This document shows, piece after piece, positions 1,483 through 49,852 of a stretch of DNA of 49,852 nucleotides. Below the pieces are notes generated by a model, which saw nothing but the letters and a program-made list of their open reading frames with translations, ran no database searches and had not been told where the DNA came from. The stretch's first letter is position 1; every line of letters begins with the position of its first letter. Source of the DNA: Clostridia bacterium (lineage in GTDB: Bacteria > Bacillota > Clostridia > Christensenellales > Borkfalkiaceae); NCBI GenBank assembly GCA_017397305.1, contig JAFQJB010000013.1:1-49852 (forward strand), given 5' to 3'. A program made the translations under genes and the position numbers.

Positions 1483-1584
1483 GTGAACGTTCAAAATTTC
1501 CGCTTGGCAATCACCGATGCTACAAGGATTACGCTTAAAAACGCACTTACCTTGCTCGGCATTGAAACAGTGGAGCAAATGTAA
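1483..1584 (+). CDS. argS: Arginyl-tRNA synthetase, C-terminal 33 codons only
   Basis: The last 33 codons of a class I arginyl-tRNA synthetase. The peptide RLAITDATRITLKNAL followed by TLLGIETVEQM and stop matches the ArgRS C-terminus, which normally ends in (V/L)LKNAL..LLGI..PE(R/K)M. The tail belongs to the anticodon-binding helical domain. Everything upstream is missing: before about 1483 the sequence becomes the minus-strand phospholipase D gene. The stop codon overlaps the start of the next gene (TAATG), so the two were one operon. An essential enzyme reduced to its tail argues that the break is an assembly join, or that a full copy lies elsewhere. Confidence 0.75.
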   Translation: MNVQNFRLAITDATRITLKNALTLLGIETVEQM

Positions 1585-2231
1585 TGAATAAAGCAGTTAT
1601 TTTTGACCTTGACGGAACGCTTTTGCACACACTTCCCGACATCCATTTTTACGTTAACGAGATGTTATCCCATTACGGCTATCCCTTGCGCAGTGAAGAG
1701 GAAGTTATGCAATTTATCGGTTGCGGGTCAAGAAATCTTATAAAGCTTAGCCTTCCGGAAGGTCTAACCGATGATGAGATAAGCGAAAGGCACGCATACT
1801 ACAACAAGGTTTATACCGAGTCTGGAAGTCCTAAAACCAAACTTTTCGACGGGATTGAAGAGGTTTTAAGGGGCTTAAAGCAAAGGGGCTATAAGCTTGC
1901 AATATTGACCAACAAACCTCAAGAGACGACCGATAACGTTTACGAACGTTATATGAAGCATCTCGGCTTTGATAAAGTGGTGGGGCAAAGTGCAACGGTA
2001 AAAGTTAAACCCGACCCCACAACTGCAAACGCTATTTTAAGGGAGTTTGACGTTTTAGTGGAGAATGCGTACTTCGTTGGTGACGGAGAGACCGACGTTC
2101 AAACGTCAATCAACGTTAAAACCAACGGAATTGCGGTGCTTTGGGGATATCGCACAAAAGAACAATTAAAGTTGGCTGGTGCAAACGTTTTTGCAAATAA
2201 GCCTTTAGATTTACTTTCATTAATCAAATAA
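1584..2231 (+). CDS. HAD-superfamily phosphatase, phosphoglycolate phosphatase-like
   Basis: A 215-aa haloacid dehalogenase-type hydrolase of the Gph/PGMB group, expected to remove phosphate from small metabolites in the cytoplasm. Motif I is FDLDGTL (nucleophile Asp8, acid/base Asp10), motif II is the Thr in AILTNK, motif III the Lys in VKVKPDP, motif IV VGDGETDV. A helical cap domain occupies about residues 15-85, as in phosphoglycolate phosphatases. The start overlaps the argS stop (TAATG), implying translational coupling. The physiological substrate cannot be told from sequence; 2-phosphoglycolate is the family default. Confidence 0.85.
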   Translation: MNKAVIFDLDGTLLHTLPDIHFYVNEMLSHYGYPLRSEEEVMQFIGCGSRNLIKLSLPEGLTDDEISERHAYYNKVYTESGSPKTKLFDGIEEVLRGLKQRGYKLAILTNKPQETTDNVYERYMKHLGFDKVVGQSATVKVKPDPTTANAILREFDVLVENAYFVGDGETDVQTSINVKTNGIAVLWGYRTKEQLKLAGANVFANKPLDLLSLIK

Positions 2232-2302
2232 TTTCTATTTATTTTTTTTCGATTAAAAATCATTTATTTATCAAAACTTAATAAGTTGCAAGGAGGGTAA
2301 TT

Positions 2303-3505
2303 TTGAACAAAATATACCAAACTGCAATCATTGGAGGAGGCTCGGCGGGACTTATGACCGCCGTAGAACTCGTCAGTGGTAGTGACGCACTTAAAGGTAG
2401 TGACGTTGTTATTTTGGAGCGCAACGATAGGGTAGGTAAAAAACTTATCGCCACGGGGAATGGGCAAGGCAACTTGACCAACCTTAATTTCGGTGCGGAG
2501 TTTTTCTATGGAAATTCTAATTTTATCAACGCGTTTATCGAGAGTGCAAAAGAGATTAACTTAATTGAATACCTAAAAAAACTTGGCATTTATACCTTTG
2601 CGAATAAAGAGGGAAAGGTCTATCCGCTCTCCCGCCAAGCAAGTTCGGTTTTAGACACTATTAGGCTATACCTTAATAAAAGGGGTGTTGAAGAAATCAC
2701 TTCTTGTAAGGTAAATAAGGTTGAAAGAGAAGGTAACAAATACAAAATACAAGCGGAAGGCAAAACCTTTTATGCTATTAACGTGGTTTTTGCTTTCGGT
2801 GGTGCGGTTGCAAAGCAATTTGGCACGGACGGAAGCGCTTATGCACTTCTAGAGGGGTTTGGTCACAAATGCACCAAGACCTATCCGTCGCTCGTTCAAT
2901 TAAAGACCGAACTTGATAAAATAAGGGGGCTTAAAGGCTTAAAAGAGGTTGCAAAGGTGACCGCTATCAAAGGTGGCAAAGAGCTTATGAGTGTTACGGG
3001 TGACCTTTTGTTTACCGAGTTTGGCGTTTCGGGTTCAACGATTTTTTCCCTTTCGGCTTGCGTTGTCGATAAAGAAGACGTAACTTTGAAGGTGGAATTT
3101 TTGCCCGACCTTAATCAAGAGCAAATTGAGAGCATATTATTAGATAGAGAACAATATTGCGCTCACCTACAAGACGAATATTTGTTAGGATTAATCAACA
3201 AGCGGGTTGGACAAGCGGTGTTAAAGGCGGCAAGAAGTAAGTGTGCAAAAGACGTCGCCTTTGCCCTTAAAAACTTTACCTTAAATGTTACTGGCAATCT
3301 CGGTGCAAATTATGCGCAAGTAACCAAGGGCGGTATAAAAACCGATTACGTGGACGAAAATTCTTATCAAAGCAAATTAACAAAAAACCTATATATAATC
3401 GGTGAAGCACTTGACGTGGACGGCGATTGCGGTGGGTATAACCTCACCTTTGCCTTCGTTTCGGCAATCAAGTGCGCAAAATCAATAAAACAATCAATAA
3501 GGTGA
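2303..3505 (+). CDS. NAD(P)/FAD-dependent oxidoreductase, HI0933/BaiN family
   Basis: A 400-aa flavoprotein of the HI0933/YhiN/BaiN family. The N-terminal dinucleotide-binding motif is IIGGGSAGLMTA (residues 9-20), then ERNDRVGKKLIATGNGQGNLTN, the family signature that includes a conserved GNG(R/Q)CN-type segment. A second FAD-contacting region is FAFGGAV, and the C-terminus has GDCGGYNLTFAFVSA. Some clostridial relatives reduce bile-acid intermediates, but most are uncharacterised, so no substrate is assigned. The start is a TTG at 2303, chosen because AGGAGGG lies 5 bases upstream and the fold begins there. It follows the phosphatase by 71 AT-rich bases and precedes rho by 3 bases, so it is co-transcribed with rho. 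Confidence 0.85.
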   Translation: MNKIYQTAIIGGGSAGLMTAVELVSGSDALKGSDVVILERNDRVGKKLIATGNGQGNLTNLNFGAEFFYGNSNFINAFIESAKEINLIEYLKKLGIYTFANKEGKVYPLSRQASSVLDTIRLYLNKRGVEEITSCKVNKVEREGNKYKIQAEGKTFYAINVVFAFGGAVAKQFGTDGSAYALLEGFGHKCTKTYPSLVQLKTELDKIRGLKGLKEVAKVTAIKGGKELMSVTGDLLFTEFGVSGSTIFSLSACVVDKEDVTLKVEFLPDLNQEQIESILLDREQYCAHLQDEYLLGLINKRVGQAVLKAARSKCAKDVAFALKNFTLNVTGNLGANYAQVTKGGIKTDYVDENSYQSKLTKNLYIIGEALDVDGDCGGYNLTFAFVSAIKCAKSIKQSIR

Positions 3506-3508
3506 ATT

Positions 3509-48517: not shown

Positions 48518-48799
48518 ATGAGTAGAAGCGTTAAAAAAGGTCCTTATGTAGAACCTAAACTCTTAAAGAGAATTGAAGAATTAAACGAAAAGAACGAAAA
48601 GAAAGTCTTGAAGACTTGGTCAAGGTCGTCCACGATATTCCCGCAAATGGTAGGTCATACGATTGCGGTATACGACGGCAGAAAACACGTACCCGTATAC
48701 GTTACCGAAGATATGGTAGGATGCAAACTCGGTGAGTTCTCTCCAACCAGAACCTTTAAGGGTCACGGTGGCACTGAAAAATCTACGGGTGGCAGATAA
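48518..48799 (+). CDS. rpsS: 30S ribosomal protein S19
   Basis: A 93-aa protein of the 30S head, contacting tRNA and S13. It begins SRSVKKGPYVEPKLLKRIEE and has TWSRSSTIFPQMVGHTIAVY and KLGEFSPTRTFKGH. Ribosome site AAGGAGAG, 11 bases after rplB. Confidence 0.97.
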   Translation: MSRSVKKGPYVEPKLLKRIEELNEKNEKKVLKTWSRSSTIFPQMVGHTIAVYDGRKHVPVYVTEDMVGCKLGEFSPTRTFKGHGGTEKSTGGR

Positions 48800-48813
48800 T
48801 AGGAGGCGTAAAA

Positions 48814-49200
48814 ATGGCTAAAAATATGAGAGAAAAAACCGCTAGAATCGCGGAAAATAAAGACAGACGCCCCAGAGCAGTTGCTAAGCACGTAAGAATT
48901 TCCCCCTATAAAGTAAGAGTTGTGCTCGACATTATTAGAGGAAAGAGCTATACGCAAGCAGTTGCGATTTTGGAAAACACTCCGAAGTCGGCATCCGACC
49001 CCATCAAAAAGGTTTTGATGTCTGCTGCGGCTAACGCAGAAAACAACCTCGGTATGAGCAAGGACAACTTGTTTGTCGCTGCTTGCTATGCAGACCAAGG
49101 TCCTACGCTCAAAAGGGTTATGCCCAGAGCACAAGGTAGAGCGTTCAGAATTTTGAAGCGCACCAGCCACATTACTATCGTGCTGGACGCAAAGGCATAG
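48814..49200 (+). CDS. rplV: 50S ribosomal protein L22
   Basis: A 128-aa protein whose beta hairpin reaches into the exit tunnel. Motifs are RAVAKHVRISPYKVRVVLDI, IRGKSYTQAVAILENTP and the hairpin GPTLKRVMPRAQGRAF. The N-terminus (AKNMREKTARIAENKDRRP) is about 15 residues longer than in E. coli. Ribosome site TAGGAGG. Confidence 0.96.
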   Translation: MAKNMREKTARIAENKDRRPRAVAKHVRISPYKVRVVLDIIRGKSYTQAVAILENTPKSASDPIKKVLMSAAANAENNLGMSKDNLFVAACYADQGPTLKRVMPRAQGRAFRILKRTSHITIVLDAKA

Positions 49201-49210
49201 GAGGTACGGT

Positions 49211-49852
49211 ATGGGACAAAAAGTTAATCCGCACGGTTTAAGAGTCGGAATTATCAAAGATTGGGATTCTCATTGGTTTGTAGATAAGAAAGATTTTGCT
49301 GCAAACATTAAAGAAGACAATGAAATCCGTAACGTATTAAAGAAAAAATACTATCAAGCAGCAATCAGCAAGATTGCTATTGAAAAAGCTGCAACCAAAA
49401 TCACCATCACCATTTTCACTGCACGTCCCGGTGTACTCATCGGTAAGCAAGGTAGTGAAATTGAAATCATTAAGAAAACCGTAGCAAAAATTTGCGCAGG
49501 CAAACAAATTTCTATCAACATTTCAGAAGTTAAAAAGCCCGACGCAGACGCTCAACTCGTTGCTGAAGGTATCGCAAACCAAATCGAAAAGCGTGTATCT
49601 TTTAGAAGAGCAATGAAGCAAGCAATCGGTAGGTCAATGAGAAGTGGTATCAAGGGTGTTAAGGTAACCGTAGGTGGTAGACTTGACGGTGCGGAAATCG
49701 CACGTAGTGAAAGTTATCACGAAGGTTCAATTCCCCTTCAAACTTTGAGAGCAGACATCGAATACGGCTTTGCGGAAGCGCACACCACCTATGGTGTAAT
49801 CGGTATCAAATGCTGGATTTACAAAGGTGAAGTTATCGGCGCTCCCAAGAAG
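49211..49852 (+). CDS. rpsC: 30S ribosomal protein S3 (3' end outside window)
   Basis: The first 214 codons of S3, a 30S head protein at the mRNA entry site. It starts GQKVNPHGLRVGIIKDWDS after a strong TAGGAGG site. The KH domain has PGVLIGKQGSEIEIIKK, and the C-terminal domain SFRRAMKQAIGRSMRSGIKG and GRLDGAEIARSE. The frame is open to the last base; about 5 to 20 further residues are expected. Confidence 0.96.
   Translation, partial: MGQKVNPHGLRVGIIKDWDSHWFVDKKDFAANIKEDNEIRNVLKKKYYQAAISKIAIEKAATKITITIFTARPGVLIGKQGSEIEIIKKTVAKICAGKQISINISEVKKPDADAQLVAEGIANQIEKRVSFRRAMKQAIGRSMRSGIKGVKVTVGGRLDGAEIARSESYHEGSIPLQTLRADIEYGFAEAHTTYGVIGIKCWIYKGEVIGAPKK

Follow-up and report, generated by a model that had tools for sequence, protein, structure and literature searches.

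A bacterial chromosome of the family Borkfalkiaceae nearly devoid of GATC, and a candidate GATC restriction cassette in its closest relative

The window considered here is a stretch of 49,852 nucleotides, contig JAFQJB010000013.1 (C10) of the Clostridia bacterium assembly GCA_017397305.1 (Christensenellales; Borkfalkiaceae), a genome bin designated G000 (1.387 Mb, 94% complete, 1% contaminated) from which plasmids may be missing; the organism is related to uncultured gut Clostridia. The tetranucleotide GATC is almost absent from positions 1490–49852. This depletion is genome-wide, is common to the closest relative and acts via synonymous codon choice. In our opinion, the best single cause is probably a GATC restriction system of the kind found in that sister genome, either lost recently from this lineage or located outside the bin. 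Avoidance of palindromes and restriction sites has been the subject of earlier work.

A machine count found 19 GATC sites in the whole window, 15 of them at 52–1374 and four after 1489, at exactly the positions that the original prediction, made by reading the letters of the sequence, had listed (14632, 47770, 47928 and 48145); it had also placed about fifteen sites in the first 1.48 kb. At 41.3% GC, base composition gives an expectation of 173.6 sites for 1490–49852, in agreement with the predicted chance figure of well over 150, and a second-order Markov model gives 124.7 (observed/expected 0.03; Poisson P = 7e-48). When all 256 tetramers were compared with the Markov expectation, as had been proposed, GATC was the most depleted, followed by GGCC (0.12), CCGG (0.24) and AGCT (0.47). 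Equal depletion of many other palindromes, explained by codon use, had been named as a finding that would speak against avoidance. Several palindromes are in fact low (observed/expected: GGCC 9/71, CATG 45/112, CCGG 29/72, AGCT 57/136, GTAC 56/112), but all of them are less so than GATC, and 10 of the 16 palindromes have ratios of 0.80–1.35.

Codon use, the explanation named there, fails. In 500 shuffles of synonymous codons across 41 genes (44,355 bases), which preserved each protein and the overall codon counts, 109.5 ± 9.2 GATC were obtained with a minimum of 82, as against the four observed, and codon use is therefore not the explanation. The avoidance is visible in the choice of individual codons of the window genes. 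Isoleucine is encoded by ATC in 0 of 152 cases behind a codon ending in G versus 338 of 932 elsewhere, aspartate by GAT in 2 of 79 cases ahead of C versus 332 of 765 elsewhere, and serine by TCN in 2 of 26 cases behind a codon ending in GA versus 520 of 831 elsewhere. Intergenic DNA of the window (4,058 bases) contains no GATC versus 8.0 expected.

The stretch had been labelled an AT-rich region; it proved to be ordinary chromosome. Positions 1490–49852 are chromosome core with four GATC sites, and a mobile AT-rich island is ruled out by the core genes that Pfam places along the window. The genes recognised by Pfam and NCBIfam include rho, a gyrase/topoisomerase IV pair, spoIIE, glycolytic enzymes, RNase R, SmpB, a class I tRNA synthetase, trigger factor, ClpP, a ClpX-type ATPase and ribosomal proteins; tmRNA and signal recognition particle RNA were found by Rfam. 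The GC-rich (55%) beginning of the contig, 1–1489, carries its 15 GATC at normal density. Because the similarity of the window to a relative (L007) starts only at base 1485 and a minus-strand open frame is truncated at the joint, base 1490, this segment is, judging from the sequence, probably a chimeric contig end outside the depleted chromosome. Its comparison by blastn with the loci in the analysis at that stage gave no match, and ribosomal RNA as the source of its GATC richness was rejected, as Rfam places none there.

The count over the rest of the genome, likewise proposed in the original prediction, gave the same picture: 20 GATC versus 1,044 expected over 22 stretches totalling 468,038 bases, window included and contig C17 excluded, which is about a third of the genome and corresponds to a ratio of about 0.02 (0.019). 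Twenty stretches on 20 other contigs contained 14 GATC versus 863 expected, with at most three sites per stretch; with C17 and without the last stretch, the sum is 20 versus 1,027. The stretch of C17 (L093, 8,270 bases) was dropped from the main sum and from the alignment counts because it holds the start of another rpsG, not identical to the first, along with unusual palindrome counts (CTAG 0/9, CGCG 2/19), features that suggest a contaminating contig of a related species. It was kept in the 20-contig count and in the ratios and tests for 25 genomes given below.

Inspection covered 18 remaining sites, 14 elsewhere in the genome and the four of the window. By Pfam, three of the 18 (47770..47773, 47928..47931 and 48145..48148) lie in the gene of ribosomal protein L2, and one (14632..14635, in the codon frame GAT-C) in a gene with a metallo-beta-lactamase fold (13966–15036). 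Others were recognised by eye, and we take them to lie in the 3' end of 23S rRNA (one), a tRNA (one), rpsL (one), two different rpsG copies (one each) and fusA (one); the second rpsG site and the fusA site are both on C17. Thus, partly by such recognition, half of the inspected sites are in genes of RNA, ribosomal proteins or an elongation factor. These locations are compatible with selection opposed by structural constraint or strong codon preference.

In a GyrA tree of 25 rows including the outgroup, built without duplicate genomes and without GyrA pieces of the G-numbered genomes under 400 residues, the window groups with L017 (MAG SIG421; support 99); the next relative is L007 with a GATC ratio of 0.48. 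Genome bin G018 and the genome of L017 showed the same match at identical coordinates and were therefore treated as one genome. This sister (76% complete) is also void of GATC, with 7 sites versus 174 expected in six stretches (ratio 0.04). In a 39.8 kb alignment of the two genomes (79.5% identity, seven blocks; only alignments reaching 70% identity and 300 bases were used, with an identity limit of 80% in an earlier count), one GATC is private to G000, two are private to G018 and none is shared. A substitution model predicts 82 and 80 private sites, respectively; when scaled by the median over all words, the expectation falls to about 45. Of the 256 words, GATC ranks lowest in each genome. 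Because the ancestor had almost no GATC, only gains count, so that roughly half of the scaled expectation, about 22, should apply. With one private event, we infer that relaxed selection is bounded to at most about 11–21% of the time since the split. As a second shared footprint, both genomes also avoid GCNGC (GCCGC 0.24 in G000 and 0.33 in G018, GCAGC 0.43 in both).

The sister genome contains a cassette of methylase and putative nuclease genes. It begins with a Dam-family methylase (L202:882–1985; TIGR00571 311 bits, cut-off 115, 7.5e-93; PF02086 1.1e-67), which is 72–78% identical to methylases adjoining DpnII in genomes G002 and G014. The methylase is adjoined by a gene of a 179-residue protein (L202:1999–2535), followed by a 22-residue remnant of a second methylase (L202:2580–2645) and a TIR-type defence gene (L202:2660–3520), the whole lying 5' of nrdD. 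The second methylase is of full length in G029 and G033, and in G019 its copy is cut by the contig end. No match to the DpnII nuclease (PF04556) was found in G018. From just before nrdD onward, the sister aligns with contig C19 of G000 over 6.2 kb at 91.6% identity and over a further 0.7 kb at 84.9%. Collinearity ends just 5' of nrdD, where the cassette begins; there is one 58-base match, and G000 has other genes in this place.

The 179-residue protein occupies the DpnII slot between two methylases in G018, G019, G029 and G033 (4 of 41 genomes). Its matches to Pfam PF20472 (PDDEXK_11; 25.2 bits, cut-off 23.7), the invariance of P78, D79, E94 and K96 in the 41 aligned rows of its family (the rows of this alignment and of one with 24 rows were selected by hand) and the predicted fold point to a PD-(D/E)XK nuclease. 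A first structure model was poor (pLDDT 63). A later one (pLDDT 88.3) has BstEII, a restriction enzyme, as its best structural match (E 8.4e-4, TM-score 0.50); MunI is the seventh match, and arenavirus PD-(D/E)XK endonucleases stand between the two. A search of the Protein Data Bank (PDB) by sequence gave two matches, both at chance level. Cleavage of GATC by this putative nuclease is a prediction.

The protein has 4,964 relatives; in the best 120, four are named, all as "hypothetical protein". In a second search with 73 matches, some relatives from Lactobacillales bear the name PD-(D/E)XK nuclease superfamily. A distant relative is located directly 3' of a DNA adenine methylase on a Leuconostoc plasmid and on a Lactiplantibacillus plasmid. 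Homologues were also found on three viral contigs, together with D12 and DpnII on two of them and with D12 on the third; in a phage collection, none was detected at E 1e-5. Genes of the PD-(D/E)XK protein at L269 10001–10531 and L270 3907–4392 each share the locus with a D12 methylase and DpnII, and hence both nucleases can coexist. A literature search gave nothing on this genus and nothing on this nuclease as a GATC enzyme in those parts of the publications that it covered.

The near-absence of GATC is likely the footprint of a type II restriction-modification system with a predicted specificity for GATC. Such a system would have killed cells at sites that had escaped methylation, and this killing would have removed GATC sites one by one. 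The common ancestor of G000 and G018 may have carried such a cassette, which the lineage of the window would either have lost recently or still possess in other strains, on a plasmid or in sequence missing from the assembly. The near-lack of new GATC since the split of the two genomes makes it probable that the purging pressure continued until recently.

Long exposure to a GATC restriction system, as the original prediction had put it, is thus the best-supported cause, the void sister having a Dam-family methylase and a predicted restriction nuclease, but several observations weigh against it. The enzyme survey comprised 41 genomes, namely G000, 24 others of its genus and 16 of its order, and no GATC methylase or nuclease was found in the G000 bin with five Pfam families and two cassette proteins; the earlier statement that no GATC restriction system is recognised holds, within this search, for the whole bin. 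The sister's cassette has no intact second methylase, and the specificity of its 179-residue protein is predicted only. This protein may sometimes be an accessory nuclease, because it shares a locus with DpnII on two viral contigs. Within the genus, six of the seven GATC-void genomes show no candidate enzyme, and G014 has DpnII and yet shows a GATC ratio of 0.87. The six carriers of a Dam-type methylase have a median ratio of 0.32 versus 0.23 in the 19 others (P=0.56), and one of these six is void (Fisher P=0.64). The simple rule that a resident system means avoidance therefore failed inside the genus. Missing plasmids, strain variation or an unrecognised agent could explain the mismatch between carriers and void genomes. 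Among the 16 order-level genomes outside the genus, each represented by one stretch of 4–20 kb, the median ratio is 0.21 for those with a strong Dam-type hit (n=6) and 0.75 for the others (n=10; P=0.031); this test is small and uncorrected for kinship.

The individual searches can be summarised as follows. DpnII (PF04556) is present in 5 of the 41 genomes, MutH/Sau3AI in none, a C5 methylase in 15, and the DpnI family in none over the cut-off with three weak matches; none of these was found in G000. A D12-family match over the cut-off occurs in 31 of the 41 genomes, mostly short and weak. In G000 it is on contig C8, covers 39 profile positions and exceeds the cut-off only together with its frame neighbours; the 220-residue methylase that holds it looks to us like RsmD, and the match was not taken for a Dam-type gene. 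A match of the sister methylase on contig C7 of G000 was rejected as well, as it concerns a shared N-terminal domain ahead of a Fic-type protein. This domain, with 45% identity over 64 residues, precedes both the Dam-family methylase (L202 882–1985) and the Fic-type protein (L272 772–1716). The methylases found in G000 are a genus-wide one, a type III one and one of type IIG- or type I-like kind. The type III methylase and its restriction subunit (L176 9603–15448, contig C6) are adjoined on the opposite strand by a CBASS-like cyclase and a 2TM effector, and the type IIG- or type I-like methylase is followed by a specificity subunit (L086 825–3681, contig C9).

Across 25 genomes of the genus, GATC ratios range from 0.01 to 1.5, with 7 genomes at or below 0.1 and near-normal values in G004 (0.91) and G014. 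These ratios rest on 2–22 stretches per genome, and islands are over-represented in them because many stretches were picked around methylase or defence hits. Spread within genomes is considerable: the stretches of G023 gave 0/48, 24/55, 12/41 and 14/25, and those of G024 gave 1/45, 3/40, 11/49 and 54/67, the last coming from a contig with several methylase hits. On the GyrA tree, at least six changes are required to account for the void state (below 0.12), though support is weak at 11 of the 22 inner branches. Other words are purged in other species (GTAC 17/113 in G014, TCGA 15/135 in G017), and GGCC is low in all 25 genomes (0.05 to 0.50). In one relative, represented by a stretch of 21,476 bases (L014, MAG RGIG4105), many palindromes are purged together: GATC 1/39, AGCT 0/42, TCGA 0/42, GTAC 1/39, CTAG 1/52, ACGT 1/42 and CCGG 2/27.

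It is unlikely, though worth considering, that this genome now harbours a GATC-specific enzyme from a family not yet recognised, which may or may not have a methylase of its own and still purges sites. The single private site since the split from the sister and the lack of a known candidate in six of the seven void genomes would be in accordance with it. Some 20 GATC nevertheless persist in 468 kb, so that uncut sites would have to be tolerated or protected, and the methylases found in G000 are of the three kinds given above.

A broader proposal, which we regard as quite unlikely, treats the absence of sites as a mark of self in this genus. GATC, and in other species AGCT, GTAC or TCGA, would be stripped from the chromosome until restriction nucleases circulating in the gene pool have no target left, the purge would be kept up without a resident methylase, and the small PD-(D/E)XK family with its nearly 5,000 relatives would be among the drivers.

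Removal of GATC by methyl-directed restriction, or by DNA exchange between strains that differ in GATC methylation, has been proposed for DpnI/DpnII species and is improbable as the cause here. Of 42 genomes with DpnI-like enzymes, 38 showed underrepresented GATC in a published survey (PMC4687349), and nucleases with other winged-helix fusions that sense N6-methyladenine are reported to exist (PMC11037411). Against this stands, in a search limited to the DpnI family, the absence of matches over the cut-off from all 41 genomes and of any match from G000.

The original prediction had suggested a link to a methyltransferase of the window, and a costly methylation of GATC by this enzyme is highly improbable. 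The gene (4923–5849, plus strand; PF01555 1.1e-44) encodes a beta-class DNA methyltransferase with no adjoining nuclease gene, and it is the sole beta-class methylase in G000 besides the type III one, which speaks in favour of such a role. However, 22 of the 25 genus genomes contain a close homologue or a piece of one, and GATC ratios in genomes with it range from 0.01 to about 1 and include those of G004 and G014. Being genus-wide whatever the GATC level, the enzyme does not explain the loss and was rejected as its cause. No homologue was found in the void sister at its 76% completeness. Among proteins of solved structure, those closest to the enzyme in sequence are two unnamed methyltransferases, followed by MboIIA, CcrM and RsrI, with DpnA lower. 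GANTC is mildly low in most of the 12 genus genomes counted (mostly 0.3–0.8; GACTC and GAGTC 1.1–1.4 in G005). Together with the conservation of the CcrM-like methylase across the genus, this makes GANTC a possible target of the enzyme.

That codon use, base composition or assembly makes the pattern is scarcely credible, even though several palindromes are low across the genus, since the shuffles gave 109.5 ± 9.2 sites versus 4, intergenic DNA has 0 versus 8.0, and low counts recur on each of the 20 other contigs sampled as well as in relatives whose genomes were assembled separately.

The sister species of this genus form a natural series in which a 4-base word goes from normal frequency to almost nothing, so that it becomes possible to measure how strong selection against restriction sites is and how it proceeds over time. 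By a simple two-state estimate, a ratio of 0.019 would correspond to a scaled selection of about 4 per site. The data also suggest that Dam-type methylases have a partner in a nuclease family that is widespread but little studied. Methods based on cutting at GATC are nearly blind to such chromosomes.

A restriction system of the sister's kind, once active in this lineage, would have several counterparts among known systems. In the parts of Rusinov et al. 2015 on which we draw (PMC4687349), a site is called underrepresented at a ratio of 0.78 or below; sites of systems present only in other strains of the species were underrepresented in 43.3% of 1,930 cases, whereas for systems confined to other species of the same genus the share was 18.4% of 5,162. 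As in these traces of lost restriction-modification systems, a type II palindrome is underrepresented in G000 and the candidate system is found in a close relative and not in the genome itself. In contrast to them, the ratio is about 0.02 against the threshold of 0.78, and the likely nuclease belongs to a type other than DpnII. GATC avoidance together with DpnII-type systems in relatives resembles the situation in the DpnI/DpnII species Streptococcus pneumoniae, as far as it is treated in the same source, but no DpnI-family gene over the cut-off occurs in the 41 genomes. The cassettes of the relatives are ordered like the DpnII system (DpnM, DpnII, DpnA), with a Dam-family methylase, a nuclease and a beta-class methylase; they differ from it in the PF20472 protein placed in the nuclease slot of G018, G019, G029 and G033 and in the reduction of the second methylase of G018 to a remnant of 22 residues. 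Site avoidance and traces of lost systems are already known; what is new here is the depth of the depletion and the variant of the nuclease.

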